A stretch of DNA of 64,000 bases from the NCBI GenBank assembly GCA_020627785.1, contig JAHDGF010000001.1, positions 75,056 through 139,055 on the forward strand, written 5' to 3'. Position numbers and translations under genes: made by a program. The notes beneath the pieces are model-generated. The model saw only the letters and a program-made list of their open reading frames with translations, was not told where the DNA came from and did no database searches. Below are positions 21,970-28,529 of this stretch, in pieces (positions within the stretch are counted from its first letter, which is position 1; each line of letters starts with the position of its first letter). Source of the DNA: Saprospiraceae bacterium. GTDB lineage: Bacteria > Bacteroidota > Bacteroidia > Chitinophagales > Saprospiraceae.

Positions 21970-23868
21970 ATGGCGGCTAAAAAGAAATCTAAAAAGACTG
22001 GAGCAGATAAAAAGAAGCTAAATAAAAAAGCGACTGAGCCAGTAAAAGCACAAAAACCAAAGGCGATACCTGTAAAGGAATTGCCACTGGTAAGTGCTCC
22101 GAAGTGGCTACCTCTACTATTTATAGGGCTTTCCTTCATTCTATATTTTCAGTGTATTCCTTATGGATTTGTCCTAGATGATAAGATTGTATACTCTGAA
22201 AACACCTTTACAAAAAGTGGATTTGCTGGTATTGGAGATATTTTAGGGAACGATACCTTCTTGGGTTACTTTGGAGAAAAAAAGGACCTTTTAGAAGGGG
22301 GACGTTATAGACCTCTGTCTTTGGTGAGTTTTGCGATTGAACATCAGATTTTTGGTCTGAATCCTAAAGTTGCTCACATCATTAATATTTTATTGTATGG
22401 TCTTTGTGCTTGGTTGGTGTTTTTGGTTCTCCGGCATCTCACTCGATCTTTTGAATCTAAAAACTGGTGGTGGAGTATTGCCTTTATCGGTACAATGATT
22501 TATTTGGTCCATCCCGTGCATACTGAGGCCGTCGCAAATATCAAAGGAAGGGATGAAATCATGGTGATGATCTTCTCATTATTAACCATGCTATTCTCTT
22601 TTAAGTATGCTGCAGATCGAAAATTATGGCAATTAATTTTATTGGCAGCCTACTTTTATTTAGGCTTATTGTCGAAAGAAAATGCCATTACTTTCTTAGC
22701 TGTTATTCCAGTTGCTTTATTACTTTTTAAAAGCAATGGGAAGGTTCCAGCGATGGTAATTTTTGGGACACTCTTTACCATTACTTTAAGTTACCTGTTT
22801 ACTAGGTATCGTATCATAGGATACCTGTTAGATGGCAAGGAAGTAACAGATGTTATGAACAACCCATTTGCTGGGATGTCATCCTCGGAAAGATCTGGTT
22901 CTATTTTGTATACTTTATTTGAATACTTAAGGTTAAGTGTTTTTCCTCATCCATTAACCCATGATTACTATCCATATCATATTCCAAAAACTGGTTTTGG
23001 TCATTGGAAAGTTATCTTGTCAATTGTGCTTCATGCAGGATTGATCATTTATAGTTTGCTTAATTTCAAGAAGCACAAGCTAATTAGTTTTGGTATTTGG
23101 TTTTATATTTTCACGATTTCCATAGTTTCCAATATAGTGGTAGGTGTAGGTACTTTCATGAATGAAAGATTTATTTTCATTTCTTCATTAGGTGTTTGTC
23201 TTATTATTGCCTACTTACTTTTTAAAGGTTCTAAGAAATGGGATCCTAAAATATTCTATGGAATCTTAGCAGTAATATTGATTTCTTTTTCTGCGAAGAC
23301 TTTTCTAAGAATACCGGTATGGCAAGATGCGTTTACTTTAAATTCAGCAGCAGTCAAAGTTTCAAAGAATAGCGCTAGAGCTAACTCCTTTATGGCGACC
23401 GCCTACTTTAATAATTTCCAAGCTACTCAGGATCGAGCAACCAAGATTCAATATTTGAATGAAGGAAGTGTTTATGCTGATCAGGCGTTGCGAATAATTC
23501 CTGGCTACTCTAATGCAAATTTAATGAAGGTAGGTTTTGCTGCAGAAAAGTATAAAATGGGTGAAAATAATCTTGACCAGCTTTTGGCTACTTTTAAAGA
23601 GGTGATAGCGGTTGCGCCGCAAATTGGGTACATCACTGAATATTGTAAGTATCTGAATGGCGGTAGGGCAGATTCACAAAAGTTGGTTGATTTCTATTAT
23701 GATGTTGGATACAACGTTCTTTTTAAGCAAAAGCGAATCAATGATTGGGCCGTACATTATCTGACCATGGGTAACGAACTTGATCCTAACAATGCAAACA
23801 TTAGAAGTGCCATTTATCAGGGTTATATGGCCTTGGGGAACCCAACGGCTGCAGAGAAGTATAAGTAA
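21970..23868 (+). CDS. TMTC-like membrane glycosyltransferase with TPR tail
   Basis: 632 residues. A Lys-rich N-terminus is followed by about ten membrane helices (about 45-460) and a soluble TPR-like tail (KVSKNSARANSFMATAYFNN onward). The loop after helix 1 has VLDDKIVYSEN and YRPLSLVSFAIEH, and the segment LVHPVHTEAVANIKGRDEIM is the hallmark of the GT-C/TMTC group (DUF1736-related) that transfers mannose or other sugars from lipid carriers to proteins. Acceptors are unknown; envelope glycoproteins are plausible since many Bacteroidota O-glycosylate exported proteins. It ends nine bases from the convergent VTC gene. Confidence 0.85.
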   Translation: MAAKKKSKKTGADKKKLNKKATEPVKAQKPKAIPVKELPLVSAPKWLPLLFIGLSFILYFQCIPYGFVLDDKIVYSENTFTKSGFAGIGDILGNDTFLGYFGEKKDLLEGGRYRPLSLVSFAIEHQIFGLNPKVAHIINILLYGLCAWLVFLVLRHLTRSFESKNWWWSIAFIGTMIYLVHPVHTEAVANIKGRDEIMVMIFSLLTMLFSFKYAADRKLWQLILLAAYFYLGLLSKENAITFLAVIPVALLLFKSNGKVPAMVIFGTLFTITLSYLFTRYRIIGYLLDGKEVTDVMNNPFAGMSSSERSGSILYTLFEYLRLSVFPHPLTHDYYPYHIPKTGFGHWKVILSIVLHAGLIIYSLLNFKKHKLISFGIWFYIFTISIVSNIVVGVGTFMNERFIFISSLGVCLIIAYLLFKGSKKWDPKIFYGILAVILISFSAKTFLRIPVWQDAFTLNSAAVKVSKNSARANSFMATAYFNNFQATQDRATKIQYLNEGSVYADQALRIIPGYSNANLMKVGFAAEKYKMGENNLDQLLATFKEVIAVAPQIGYITEYCKYLNGGRADSQKLVDFYYDVGYNVLFKQKRINDWAVHYLTMGNELDPNNANIRSAIYQGYMALGNPTAAEKYK

Positions 23869-23876
23869 TTATAACT

Positions 23877-24494
23877 CTAATGAAGGTAATACTTCATTGC
23901 AGATACATACTTCGAGTTTTTGGTCAAACGGTAAGGGATCATTTGAGTGCTTAGGTCAGCAATTTCTTCGTTGCCTTGGTCATATTTGATCTCTAATATT
24001 ATACCGGCGTCCTTGTTAGAAACCTGAGAAACTTTTTTATTCATTAGATTCAAATACTGAAGATCACGATCAACAGTAGCTCTAATCTTTCCATCGTTTG
24101 AAACTAAGTAACTTCTTTGATACCTAACAATGATGTAAGGGAATAGATGGTTGGTCAATACAAATGATATGTCTGGGGCTCCTTCTTTTAAATTGAAGTT
24201 CTTTAAAGGACTGTTTTCTTTTCGGCCAAGTAGGCTTTGTTTTATTTTCTTCTCGAGTATGGGTTTTTTAATTTCCTCCAAGCTATTTCCATACCATCGA
24301 ACGCGATACTTAACCCTAGCACCTATGCCTAAAAGATTATCATTGTAGGAAGTGAAATTTACATCATCGTAGTAAATGCTATTAACGATTCTATCTGGAT
24401 AAGCTGTTTTGAAGCCCGCAGGATTACACATTACTTCATGTAACACTCGATTAAAACTACTTGACTCTATCCGATATTTTCTTTCGTACCTCAT
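23877..24494 (-). CDS. VTC-domain polyphosphate polymerase
   Basis: 205 residues, essentially a bare VTC catalytic domain. Tunnel-fold motifs in order: ERKYR (4-8), NSIYYDD (38-44), RVKYRVRWY (60-68), LEKK (80-83), VRYQRSYL (123-130), RATVDRDL (138-145), LEIKYD (167-172) and SKYVSAMKYY (194-203). Yeast Vtc4 uses this domain to build inorganic polyphosphate from ATP; bacterial copies are annotated as polyphosphate polymerases. There is no signal or membrane span, so it acts on the cytoplasmic side, perhaps docked to the membrane partner DUF4956. Its ATG overlaps the stop of the CotH gene by one base (TAATG). The fold is secure; polymerase activity is inferred. Confidence 0.88.
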   Translation of the reverse strand: MRYERKYRIESSSFNRVLHEVMCNPAGFKTAYPDRIVNSIYYDDVNFTSYNDNLLGIGARVKYRVRWYGNSLEEIKKPILEKKIKQSLLGRKENSPLKNFNLKEGAPDISFVLTNHLFPYIIVRYQRSYLVSNDGKIRATVDRDLQYLNLMNKKVSQVSNKDAGIILEIKYDQGNEEIADLSTQMIPYRLTKNSKYVSAMKYYLH

Positions 24495-26956
24495 TAACCC
24501 CGTTCAGTTTTTCCATTGACTTTAATGGTTACACCCTGCTTTAAGAGGTATAGTTGTTCAACTCCTTTGTGATTGAAGTTTTCCAATACAACTTTGGTTG
24601 GATGGTCCTCTTTACTTCTCACCTCAAAACCAAATTTTAAATTCTCATTCCAGAATTTTATCATTTTGATTTCTGAATGGTCGGAAGCAAAAAGACTTTG
24701 ATATGAATCATATACATTGACATCAAAGGCATAAACCTCAGCCATATTGCTAAAATTGAAAACCTTGTTTAATATATTTCTGCATTCCATGTTTGCAATA
24801 TTAACGAAGCCAGACTCTACACTCAATCCGTTGCGTCCTGCGGATTTAATTTTCACCTTATTAATTACTAAACTTGAATGTTTTGAATGAATGGCTGTAC
24901 CTGCAATTTCTTCAAAACCAGAATTGATAATTTCTACCTCACAGTATCTAAGGGACAAACAAGTTTTGGCCTTACTCTGGAAAAAGCGGCAGTCTTCTAT
25001 ATTAACCTTACTTCGATAAATATTAAAAGTTCCATCAACATTAATTGGGCTAGAAGCGTAATTTGACATTCCTAAGAAATCACAGTGTTTGAAAGTTGAT
25101 TTCTCTTCGACTCCTGAAATTAATATTGCAGAACCCGCCTGACCATCAGAACTAAACTTAATTGGATTGACTTTACTACCGATCGCATGTATTGGTGAAT
25201 AGCTCAGCAGATTACCTTTACCTTGAAAGTGTAATTCAGTGCCTGCGGATATTTTTAACACCTTATCTTTTGGTATTACGACAGGAAAATCAATTGAATG
25301 TTTACCTGAAGAAATCGTAATTTCCTTCTCGTTTTCAACGACAAAATTTAAAGCTTTAAATTGGGATAAAGTAGAGCGGTTTGACTGATTACTTTCTTTA
25401 GGAATACTGTTTTTTAATAGCGGTGTTTTATGAATTGATGTGAGACCGAGCGTTCTATAATAGATGTAGTCAACTTTTTTATTATGCTTGTGCAAATATG
25501 TTCTAACTGGCACCTTAGAGTTATATGCTTCTAACACAAGTGTTTCCTCTAATTCAAAATTTAGTTCTTTTTGGTCTCCAAAACCTATGACTTCCATAGG
25601 GAAATAATGAAAGGATTGAAAAGCTATTTCTTCTTTAGAATTTTCGACTCTATAGGCCTTCAAAGATAAGCTTGGCTTAGGTTCTAATTTTTTGCGTGTA
25701 AAAAATGCTTTACCAAAAATAGTCTCCCAATCTGATTTAAAGCCTTTGTACAATTCATCCTCATTGATAAAGGCGACTCTTGAGTCAAGCTCAGATGTAA
25801 TTTCTTGCTTGAATTGATTGAGATATTGTTGGTTTGTAAATTTTTCTAGATACGTCATATATACTTTGAAGAAGGCCTCATCTTGAAACAAGAGATAGCG
25901 ATACACATCACCCGCAGCGTATGATGCTTCAGGAGGTCTTCGTGAGTTGAAAGCTTCTCCGTAGGCTTCCCAATTTTTATTTACCTCAGGCATATGATCT
26001 CCAAAACAATCAAAGGCAATAGGTTCCAGCTTTCCTGTAAAGTTATTGAGGTAAAATCTGATATTCGTAAATAGCGCTGCATGCCAAGCATGCGATAGAT
26101 CAAGTAAGGCAAAATATTTACCCATTAGATCGAGATCAAAAACCTCTGAAGCTGTTCTATTCTTATTCACAAATTCATCCAACATGGAATGGGCAAGATC
26201 AAACGATAATTTAAAATCGGGATCATTTTTATTTTCCTTGTTGAACAACTCAATATGTGAAGACTCAACCCACGGGAATGGAGTTAGCTTCTTTTGTATA
26301 TTTTCCCAATAACTATCATCATTGTGTTTTAAAATGGGTCCAATATCTCTATCATTATTTTTAAGTAACTGATTTTCAAAGTGATGCTCGAAAGCGTAGA
26401 CTCCTAAATCTTTACCATTTAATTGTACATTGATGAAGTCATATGCTGGTACAATAATGCCCTCTTTTGCAAACAATTGATGCATCAACCATTCGGCAGT
26501 ATGTGACCTTGCTTTGCTATTGTGAATTGAAAAGGTGTTTATTCCATTCCATTCTTCGTTGTCCTTTAGCATGATTCTAAAAGACCAGCGATCAGTTTCT
26601 AGGTGGTCTAATAAATCACCTTTTAAGCGCAACTTACAAGCATACTCTTTACCATCAATTTTTATATCCGCATCCACTAGATCATCCTTAGAAGAAAAGA
26701 GCAGACCTTTCTCTAATGCCTGCGTACGTTTTTTTGCTAACTTTTTATAGGCATCACTATAAATGGCAATTTCAAATGTCGAACCATTAAAAGGAGTTAC
26801 CTGAATTGTTTCTTCGCTTGAGTCTAATATTTCTTCTTTTTCAGCAATTTTTTTTCCTTTAAGTGCAAGGAAAAAAACGCCAACTAAAATCAAGCAGATT
26901 ACTAAAGGAATAAAGATTCCATGATTTCTTCTTTTCTCATTTTTATTGATCCTCAT
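24494..26956 (-). CDS. Membrane-anchored CotH-family kinase with C-terminal parallel beta-helix
   Basis: 820 residues from ATG 26956 (the open frame extends to 27019 but overlaps the upstream gene). Residues 13-33 are one membrane span; the rest should face the periplasm. Residues about 75-430 match CotH: CKLRLKGDLLDHLETDRWSF, NTFSIHNSKARSH, INVQLNGKDLGVYAFEHHFE, and LEPIAFDCFGDHMPE where active-site acids are expected. Residues about 590-800 are a right-handed parallel beta-helix (FKHCDFLGMSNYASSP, NIEDCRFFQSKAKTCL, VEIINSGFEEIAGTAIHS). Bacillus CotH phosphorylates spore-coat proteins, so a secretory-side protein kinase is plausible. ATGA overlap with the CYTH gene. Confidence 0.85.
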   Translation of the reverse strand: MRINKNEKRRNHGIFIPLVICLILVGVFFLALKGKKIAEKEEILDSSEETIQVTPFNGSTFEIAIYSDAYKKLAKKRTQALEKGLLFSSKDDLVDADIKIDGKEYACKLRLKGDLLDHLETDRWSFRIMLKDNEEWNGINTFSIHNSKARSHTAEWLMHQLFAKEGIIVPAYDFINVQLNGKDLGVYAFEHHFENQLLKNNDRDIGPILKHNDDSYWENIQKKLTPFPWVESSHIELFNKENKNDPDFKLSFDLAHSMLDEFVNKNRTASEVFDLDLMGKYFALLDLSHAWHAALFTNIRFYLNNFTGKLEPIAFDCFGDHMPEVNKNWEAYGEAFNSRRPPEASYAAGDVYRYLLFQDEAFFKVYMTYLEKFTNQQYLNQFKQEITSELDSRVAFINEDELYKGFKSDWETIFGKAFFTRKKLEPKPSLSLKAYRVENSKEEIAFQSFHYFPMEVIGFGDQKELNFELEETLVLEAYNSKVPVRTYLHKHNKKVDYIYYRTLGLTSIHKTPLLKNSIPKESNQSNRSTLSQFKALNFVVENEKEITISSGKHSIDFPVVIPKDKVLKISAGTELHFQGKGNLLSYSPIHAIGSKVNPIKFSSDGQAGSAILISGVEEKSTFKHCDFLGMSNYASSPINVDGTFNIYRSKVNIEDCRFFQSKAKTCLSLRYCEVEIINSGFEEIAGTAIHSKHSSLVINKVKIKSAGRNGLSVESGFVNIANMECRNILNKVFNFSNMAEVYAFDVNVYDSYQSLFASDHSEIKMIKFWNENLKFGFEVRSKEDHPTKVVLENFNHKGVEQLYLLKQGVTIKVNGKTERG

Positions 26957-27855
26957 AAAAGTTGATCTTTTATGAATAAAATGGAAGATAAACCTACAAT
27001 AGACCCAAGGATAATCCACATGAAGTTTTCGTGAAGACGGGAGAGTAGACTCTCGTCAATGAGTTCTTTCATCTTTAGATATTTGGAGCGTTGATCTACT
27101 TTTAAGTTTGGAAATCTTTGCGAAAGCTTATTCTTAATACTTGCATTCAAAGAATTCATTTGTGCTCGTTCTTGTTCATCTGCTTGTGTGAATCTAATTT
27201 CATTCAACTCTAATTCAATCTCAAAATATTCTTGATAAGGAAAAGAAAAATTACTTACTTCATCTAGAGTTATAGTAGCAACACTTTCCCCAGCTTGATC
27301 TTTGATGTATACTCGACTTCTCGTTTGCTTCAACTTTACAGATTTTTGAATATCATCTGGTCGTACCATATACGGTGCTAGATGGAAACTCATCCTCTCT
27401 GTATCGCTATTGCTTAGTAGCTTCAAGAATGGATGTCTAATTGAAAGATCGTTGTAATTTTTTTTCTGATCAACTTCAAACTTAATTTCATTTCTTACGA
27501 CCTTATCTTCGGAGTAAGGGGTTTTCAGTTGTATCAATTCTTTCAATAAGATTTTGTCTTTGTACCTTTTGCGATGTCTTAGGCTTACTTCCGCTTTCGC
27601 AAATGATTGGTCAGGCAAGTCAAAATATTGATCAATGAATATTTCAATGGATTCTTCCCCCGATAACTTCAGTTGATCTTCCACAAAGAGCTCTTGCCCA
27701 TAAGTCGATTGTACAAATTGCCATAGTTGAATTACATCATCCTTGGGTACACTTAGTTTGTATTCGCTTTCTAATCTTCCATCTTGAGCATTACATATTT
27801 GGAATACTAGAGTAAATAGGCAGATTAATAGGGATATGGTAAAAATTGCTCTCAA
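26953..27855 (-). CDS. Exported, membrane-anchored CYTH/TTM-like protein
   Basis: 300 residues: signal peptide (MRAIFTISLLICLFTLVFQICNAQ), a soluble domain, and a C-terminal membrane span (FMWIILGSIVGLSSILFI). The soluble part begins with the CYTH hallmark ExExK as E29-S-E31-Y-K33, followed by alternating charged strands: SLRHRKRY, RNEIKFEV, KLKQTRSRVYI, ATITLDEV and FEIELELNE. This is the triphosphate tunnel metalloenzyme fold, a relative of the VTC domain two genes downstream, but placed on the outer side of the membrane. It could bind or hydrolyse polyphosphate or a triphosphate there. Start overlaps the DUF4956 stop by four bases. Fold moderate, function unknown. Confidence 0.72.
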   Translation of the reverse strand: MRAIFTISLLICLFTLVFQICNAQDGRLESEYKLSVPKDDVIQLWQFVQSTYGQELFVEDQLKLSGEESIEIFIDQYFDLPDQSFAKAEVSLRHRKRYKDKILLKELIQLKTPYSEDKVVRNEIKFEVDQKKNYNDLSIRHPFLKLLSNSDTERMSFHLAPYMVRPDDIQKSVKLKQTRSRVYIKDQAGESVATITLDEVSNFSFPYQEYFEIELELNEIRFTQADEQERAQMNSLNASIKNKLSQRFPNLKVDQRSKYLKMKELIDESLLSRLHENFMWIILGSIVGLSSILFIKDQLL

Positions 27856-28529
27856 CCGATCATGTTCTTGTTGTCAACAAATGAGAATTCAACATTCTGA
27901 TCTGACTTTAGTAAACTACTTTTTGTCTGAGTTAATTGCTCAAATTTATTTGCTTGAACTACATAGGTCATGAATAATTTGCCGTTATCTTGACTCATTC
28001 TTCTCAGCTCAACATTGTCAAAATTTGTTGACATGGTACCATTTATGTTTTCTTCAGAAAGAATAGCAGATGATATGTTGACAACCATTTGATTATTTAG
28101 GTCAAATGACTTTTTGTTATACATTCTTGACTGAAGATATAACAGGGCTAAAATTAATACGAAGGCAATAACCGTAATGGCCGGTTGATTGGCCCCCATT
28201 CCTAATCCTATTCCTATGACCAAAAAGAGAAAAGTAAGTTCCTCCGGTTCCTTAATTGCTGCTCTAAATCTCACAATTGATAACGCACCGACTAATCCTA
28301 AGGAAAGTGCTATACTCGACTTCACGATGTAGATGATCAACATAGTACTCAAAGCAAGCAACATAAAATTTCCTGCAAACTGAGACCTATTACTTACAGA
28401 ACGACCAAACCGTCTATAGTAAACGGCAAGAATCCAGGATAGTAAGGCAGCCAGCAGGGCATTTAAAATGAAATTACTGAGATCCAATAATTGCAAATTA
28501 TAATCTAATAGTAAGTCCTCAATATTCAT
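27852..28529 (-). CDS. DUF4956 integral membrane protein
   Basis: 225 residues; first gene of the operon. An N-terminal span, then LSLGLVGALSIVRFRAAIKEPEELTFLFLVIGIGLGMG, which is the diagnostic DUF4956 core: a G-A-L-S-I-V-R-F-R loop between hydrophobic helices. The last 80 residues form a soluble ferredoxin-like tail. DUF4956 proteins commonly sit next to VTC and CotH genes in bacterial genomes, and the conserved Arg-rich loop could serve an anionic substrate such as polyphosphate; that is inference. No exact TAnnTTTG box was found in the 284 bases upstream. Confidence 0.88.
   Translation of the reverse strand: MNIEDLLLDYNLQLLDLSNFILNALLAALLSWILAVYYRRFGRSVSNRSQFAGNFMLLALSTMLIIYIVKSSIALSLGLVGALSIVRFRAAIKEPEELTFLFLVIGIGLGMGANQPAITVIAFVLILALLYLQSRMYNKKSFDLNNQMVVNISSAILSEENINGTMSTNFDNVELRRMSQDNGKLFMTYVVQANKFEQLTQTKSSLLKSDQNVEFSFVDNKNMIG

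Follow-up and report, generated by a model that had tools for sequence, protein, structure and literature searches.

A four-gene DUF4956/CYTH/CotH/VTC operon of Saprospiraceae as a candidate system for polyphosphate synthesis and export

The DNA analyzed here, referred to as the window, is a 64,000-nucleotide stretch from a Saprospiraceae bacterium (assembly GCA_020627785.1, contig JAHDGF010000001.1, positions 75,056 to 139,055). It carries a four-gene operon encoding, in this order, a DUF4956 membrane protein, an exported CYTH protein, a CotH-fold protein, and a VTC-type protein (Table 1). The VTC protein has a complete tunnel of the polymerase type, and in Bacteroidota VTC genes are found almost without exception close to DUF4956 genes, mostly together with components of envelope export. 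We therefore propose, with a probability of roughly 0.45, that polyphosphate (polyP) is made inside the cell and threaded through DUF4956, to be shortened or put to use on the periplasmic side of the membrane.

Results

The VTC protein has a tunnel of the polyphosphate-polymerase type

The four open reading frames (ORFs) were confirmed at the positions and on the strand given in the initial annotation, each with a Pfam match, while NCBIfam gave no useful name for any of the products. The gene overlaps reported there were found at 26953-26956 (ATGA) and 24494 (TAATG), but the third, at 27852-27855, reads TTGA rather than ATGA, and the start codon of the CYTH gene is therefore TTG.

Table 1. Coordinates of the operon genes and of the protein features discussed in the text
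Feature	Position in window	Strand	Basis
DUF4956 membrane protein gene	27852..28529	-	225 aa; Pfam PF16316, E 4.7e-15
Exported CYTH/triphosphate-tunnel protein gene	26953..27855	-	300 aa, TTG start; Pfam PF01928, E 4e-8
CotH-fold protein gene	24494..26956	-	820 aa; Pfam CotH, E 2.5e-5
VTC polyphosphate-polymerase-type tunnel domain gene	23877..24494	-	205 aa; Pfam PF09359, E 1.1e-26
CYTH putative signal peptide, residues 1-24	27784..27855	-	hydrophobic segment 3-21; AQ in 7/7 sequences; cleavage inferred
CYTH ExExK motif, E29-S-E31-Y-K33	27757..27771	-	invariant in 7 species; metal-patch role from PMC4641920
CYTH C-terminal transmembrane anchor, residues ~277-295	26971..27027	-	hydropathy 2.0; in all relatives examined
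CotH His292, in place of catalytic Asp228	26081..26083	-	alignment/profile comparison; D228Q inactive in PMC7821199
CotH Asp316, Asp251 equivalent, kept	26009..26011	-	invariant column in alignment A3

The VTC protein clearly exceeded the Pfam cut-off (94.3 bits versus 23) and contained the three motifs noted earlier, RVKYRVRWY, RYQRSYL, and EIKYD. When its profile was searched against solved structures, yeast Vtc4 (3g3q) was returned first, with an E value of 1.2e-19 and with the basic tunnel residues aligned. An alignment of 20 bacterial VTC proteins exhibited 19 invariant columns, and the tunnel residues K6, R64, R66, K83, K92, R127, R138, E168, K170, and K195 were all invariant. The previous description of this protein as a cytoplasmic VTC polymerase domain is supported by these tunnel residues. 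Hydropathy analysis found no transmembrane segment, consistent with a soluble protein, and none of the four operon proteins matched the SPX or DUF202 (Vtc1-type) profiles of Pfam, the VTC protein consisting of the tunnel domain only. At the K-4 position it has Arg2, while the CYTH protein has Glu29, matching the contrast between the basic tunnel residues of the Vtc4 polymerase and the acidic ones of tripolyphosphatases (PMC4641920). The VTC product is presumably polyP. A comparison of the CYTH and VTC proteins with hhalign gave no significant sequence relation (prob 6.5), indicating that the two are linked by fold only. The operon resembles the yeast VTC complex (Vtc4/Vtc3/Vtc1) in having a tunnel domain with conserved basic residues and, in the membrane, a partner as possible carrier of the chain; it differs in that DUF4956 and the periplasmic tunnel protein are separate proteins. 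A PPK1 gene and a Ppx/GppA family gene were found on other contigs of the same genome, so that the four-gene operon is not required for cytoplasmic polyP.

DUF4956 is a near-obligate partner of VTC

Among 395 Bacteroidota genomes, DUF4956 was present in 88 and VTC in 57. A DUF4956 gene was located within 5 kb at 64 of the 65 VTC places, the exception being a short fragment, which makes DUF4956 a near-obligate partner of VTC. The surroundings of 84 DUF4956 loci were then mapped (the window, L016, L021, L022, and 80 fetched loci, with L021 and L022 brought in via CYTH). Within four genes of DUF4956 there was a VTC gene in 59, an HlyD-like gene in 46, a CotH gene in 26, a DUF2490 gene in 15, and a TolC-like gene in 13, where the neighbor clusters were named from representatives, Pfam supporting one HlyD-like cluster and DUF2490. 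Of the 59 mapped VTC loci, 33 had an HlyD-like gene, 15 a DUF2490 outer-membrane barrel, and 48 one or the other; for the HlyD-like L081 and the TolC-like L108 and L016 representatives, which Pfam did not place in those families, the names come from sequence features. The VTC-DUF4956 couple therefore looks like a synthase-translocon pair, and since HlyD-like, TolC-like, and outer-membrane genes adjoin, the anatomy of these loci favors an envelope export role for DUF4956. The window operon shares DUF4956 with the DUF4956-HlyD-TolC and VTC-DUF4956-HlyD/DUF2490 loci of Bacteroidota, and VTC with most of them, but those loci have a periplasmic adaptor and outer-membrane partners and lack a CYTH gene.

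The assignment of DUF4956 as a membrane protein was borne out by its Pfam score (56.2 bits versus a cut-off of 30.6) and by four hydrophobic segments on hydropathy analysis; the model contained five long helices. The loop SIVRFRAAIKEPEEL was invariant in alignment A5. The C-terminal domain (approximately residues 147 to 219) was ferredoxin/ACT-like in the model, which had a predicted local distance difference test score (pLDDT) of 62 overall and about 80 in this domain. The model was too poor in the membrane part for a fold to be named there. We infer from the genomic linkage that DUF4956 acts as a translocon or other partner of VTC.

DUF4956 also occurs in other company. The related genomes L107, L108, L111, L114, L116, L117, L121, L123 to L125, and L132 have a fixed cluster in which HlyD-like and TolC-like genes come after DUF4956 and VTC is absent, and in these clusters DUF4956 may export something else. 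The genome of the window itself has a second DUF4956 locus (L016, 7294-8037, contig C6) with CotH, HlyD-like, and TolC-like genes and without VTC.

The CYTH protein is predicted to be a periplasmic triphosphate tunnel enzyme

The N-terminal hydrophobic segment of the CYTH protein is followed by AQ, which is typical of Bacteroidota signal-peptidase sites. This signal peptide-like N terminus, together with the C-terminal transmembrane segment, which coincides with a helix at residues 278 to 299 of the structure model, places the tunnel domain most likely in the periplasm. Residues E29, E31, K33, R93, R95, E123, K125, E214, and E216 were conserved in all seven species in which the exported CYTH is known, the window included.

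Searches of solved structures with the single sequence and with three sequences gave no match to the CYTH protein. A fold search with a model built from the seven-sequence alignment (pLDDT 82.4) did find triphosphate tunnel metalloenzymes (TTMs). The model matched E. coli ygiF (5a60) with a VIA Z of 15.8 over 191 residues at 3.8 A and AtTTM3 with a Z of 14.8; the TTMs in the top ten had Z values of 14.2 to 15.8 over 167 to 191 aligned residues with root mean square deviations of 3.1 to 3.8, and Foldseek also matched TTM enzymes. The proposal of an exported protein of the TTM fold is therefore upheld. Of the processing or attachment of polyP suggested for this protein, the acidic patch favors hydrolysis over attachment (PMC4641920), and on the model the protein is likely to be a two-metal hydrolase with a hydrolase-type acidic patch. 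It shares the predicted fold, the ExExK motif, and the conserved acidic positions with the short-chain polyphosphatases AtTTM3 and ygiF, but differs from them in being exported and membrane anchored, with only about 15% identity to solved relatives.

The CotH-type protein has lost a catalytic aspartate

The initial annotation described a membrane-anchored CotH kinase with a beta-helix. The anchor was confirmed (residues 14 to 32, hydropathy 3.17, positive side inside), and the CotH profile of Pfam was matched marginally above the cut-off (24.4 versus 23.8 bits). The C-terminal extension gave only a weak match to the Pfam Beta_helix profile (E value of 0.065), which is below the cut-off and does not sustain that part of the description. 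A single-sequence search of solved structures returned no match to the CotH protein; a profile search succeeded, and the profile of the window clade and canonical CotHs (A3) aligned to the solved CotH structures 5jd9/5jda.

In Bacillus subtilis CotH, the D228Q mutant is inactive, as is the mutant with Asp251 replaced by Ala (PMC7821199). These two residues are 23 positions apart, as are the two aligned Asp of the solved chain. In the window protein the equivalent of Asp251 is kept and that of Asp228 is His. The His was found in nine of nine sequences of the clade (the window, L021, L022, L083, L086, L133, L134, L135, and L137), whereas the other CotHs compared, including those of the same genome, had Asp at both positions, the exception being L094 with Lys for Asp228. 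In the tree, the His-type proteins grouped with full support in a single, long-stemmed clade, which also takes in L083 and L086, where DUF4956, CotH, and VTC genes occur without CYTH. With the catalytic Asp228 replaced by His, an active kinase was dropped as the function of the window protein, which appears from its sequence to be a CotH-fold relative and is not filed as a kinase. The phosphorylation step attributed to the operon CotH is likewise not supported, the residue corresponding to that changed in D228Q being His across the clade. The protein thus resembles the CotH kinases of B. subtilis and 5jd9/5jda in its CotH-type domain, recognized by profile, and in the Asp251 equivalent, and differs from them in the His, the N-terminal anchor, and the C-terminal extension.

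About 10 CotH-type genes (L003 to L010 and others) were counted in the same genome; those compared retain both catalytic Asp. The CotH genes at L016 (8177-10507) and L009 each contain one in-frame TAA, at different places, which may reflect assembly error or decay. In the CotHs of L137 and L138, the membrane anchor is separated from the CotH domain by an extra domain of about 150 residues, possibly for binding, which is not found in the window CotH.

The four-gene operon is rare and conserved in order

Of 150 genomes of the order, 3 carried the exported CYTH gene, and of 395 Bacteroidota genomes only that of the window did so. The GTDB r220 collection, scanned once with two peptide patterns that more distant members may escape, yielded six exported-CYTH loci, all in metagenome-assembled genomes of Saprospiraceae, Saprospirales, or Chitinophagales; L136 and L138 are apparently the same loci as L021 and L022, as their proteins are identical and their contigs equally long. 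The order DUF4956, CYTH, CotH, VTC was observed in all seven CYTH-bearing species with the genes touching or nearly so (in L137 the contig stops inside the CotH gene). The genes flanking the four-gene loci were mostly unlike, with some in common between the close pair L133 and L134. In that pair, the ratio of nonsynonymous to synonymous substitution rates (dN/dS) was 0.054 for DUF4956, 0.080 for CYTH, 0.075 for CotH, and 0.074 for VTC, so that all four genes are under similar strong purifying selection; these values are for the one pair, dS being saturated in a second.

The expected co-occurrence was thus observed, in that CYTH and CotH strictly accompany DUF4956 and VTC in seven of seven CYTH-bearing species, although the full set is rare. 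This rarity is what an accidental neighborhood without joint function might show. Such a neighborhood would not explain touching genes kept in the same order in seven species between mostly different flanks, nor the similar purifying selection on all four, and we regard it as so improbable as to be refuted for practical purposes.

No paper was found that describes the four-gene set, consistent with the earlier statement that it has no described function, but the core trio has been reported: in streptococci, clostridia, and bifidobacteria, contiguous CotH, polyP polymerase, and DUF4956 genes were described next to the Pel operons, with no function established and regulation via CotH phosphorylation suggested (PMC7112168). 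The CotH-type, VTC-type, and DUF4956 genes are contiguous in the window as well; the differences are the exported CYTH, the His-type CotH with its C-terminal extension, and the Gram-negative phylum. A paper on C. perfringens lists VTC and CotH genes at one locus and gives no function. No paper was found on a CotH kinase with VTC in one operon, a paper on a Haloferax polyP enzyme, consulted for a precedent of a secreted CYTH, did not mention CYTH, and a literature search on surface polyP returned nothing useful. No pel-like ORF was noticed between 18 and 35 kb in the window, where no profile search for pel genes was made. The window-type operon is a rare, undescribed variant that has no adaptor but does have a tunnel protein, most likely periplasmic, and a CotH that has diverged.

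Discussion

In the proposed pathway, cytoplasmic VTC, working at the inner surface of the cytoplasmic membrane, would polymerize polyP from ATP and feed the chain through DUF4956 to the periplasm. The anchored CYTH protein would trim or hydrolyze the emerging chain, setting its length or releasing phosphate, and the anchored CotH protein could serve at the periplasmic face as a scaffold, an acceptor, or a changed transferase. The onward transport of polyP would fall to adaptors and outer-membrane proteins in most relatives. Several observations weigh against this pathway. DUF4956 lacked a nearby VTC at 34 of its 98 places and so has uses without VTC, and the window-type operon is without HlyD and outer-membrane partners. 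The channel role of DUF4956 is read from linkage only, its membrane part being modeled poorly, and no paper was found that assigns it a function. A hydrolase beside a polymerase is an odd pairing. The positions of the CYTH acidic patch past ExExK were assigned by strand order and not by residue-level superposition, and as TTMs include cyclases and thiamine triphosphatases, the substrate may be another triphosphate.

This last point leads to the possibility that CYTH is a periplasmic triphosphatase or cyclase for nucleotides, unrelated to polyP, and that the operon carries its gene for scavenging phosphate. The model matched class IV adenylate cyclases and thiamine triphosphatases with just slightly lower Z values, and the acidic metal-binding patch is common to TTMs with different activities (PMC4641920). 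In seven of seven species, however, the only place where the gene was found is a VTC operon, with DUF4956 and CotH as its neighbors. This position suggests that the protein acts on the VTC product and leaves the nucleotide role quite improbable. A somewhat unlikely explanation is that the VTC-DUF4956 pair serves regulation or sensing and exports no chain. DUF4956 would then be an MgtC-like protein bearing an ACT-like sensor, VTC would make or bind nucleotides or short polyP, and CYTH and CotH would be envelope effectors. The ferredoxin/ACT-like fold of the DUF4956 C-terminal domain is in line with this, as one of its many ferredoxin-like matches (all weak, best E value of 1e-3) is the MgtC C-terminal domain (2lqj); so are a weak match to the Pfam MgtC profile (16 bits versus a cut-off of 31.4, E value of 0.016) and the reduction of the window VTC to its tunnel domain. 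Because HlyD-like and outer-membrane proteins are so strongly linked to the pair, export is the better fit, and the conservation of the complete polymerase tunnel also speaks against a sensing unit.

Alternatively, CotH-type proteins beyond the membrane, where little ATP is available, might draw their phosphoryl groups from exported polyP; CYTH would clip this donor into short chains fit for use, and CotH would transfer phosphate to an envelope glycan or protein by altered chemistry. Of the 59 mapped VTC loci, 23 had a CotH-type gene no more than four genes from DUF4956, compared with 1 of 405 more distant ORFs, and the canonical CotHs near VTC nearly all retain both Asp, some also carrying type IX secretion tails. 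We know of no polyP-dependent CotH, and the window CotH is without Asp228. The Gram-positive Pel loci likewise pair CotH with a polyP polymerase (PMC7112168), but the spore CotH of B. subtilis works, according to the published account (PMC7821199), as an ordinary Ser/Thr kinase, and the donor role is considered unlikely.

Returning to synthesis coupled to export, it is possible, if doubtful, that bacterial VTC and DUF4956 constitute a dedicated polyP synthase-exporter separate from PPK1, usually with HlyD-type and outer-membrane parts that take polyP across the envelope, and that in the window-type operon the chain would end in the periplasm, where the tunnel hydrolase and the diverged CotH process it or modify the envelope. 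In the papers found, bacterial polyP is the product of cytoplasmic PPK enzymes; the near-obligate pairing of a eukaryote-type polymerase domain with a membrane protein, mostly beside export parts, points to a second, export-coupled route. If so, polyP may be a polymer of the envelope or may donate phosphate outside the cytoplasm, which would bear on the function of CotH-type proteins at sites poor in ATP, and the four-gene variant of the window offers a compact test case.

The gene next to the operon (21970-23868 of the window, opposite strand) encodes a membrane protein with a weak match to PMT_2 (mannosyltransferase), below the cut-off.

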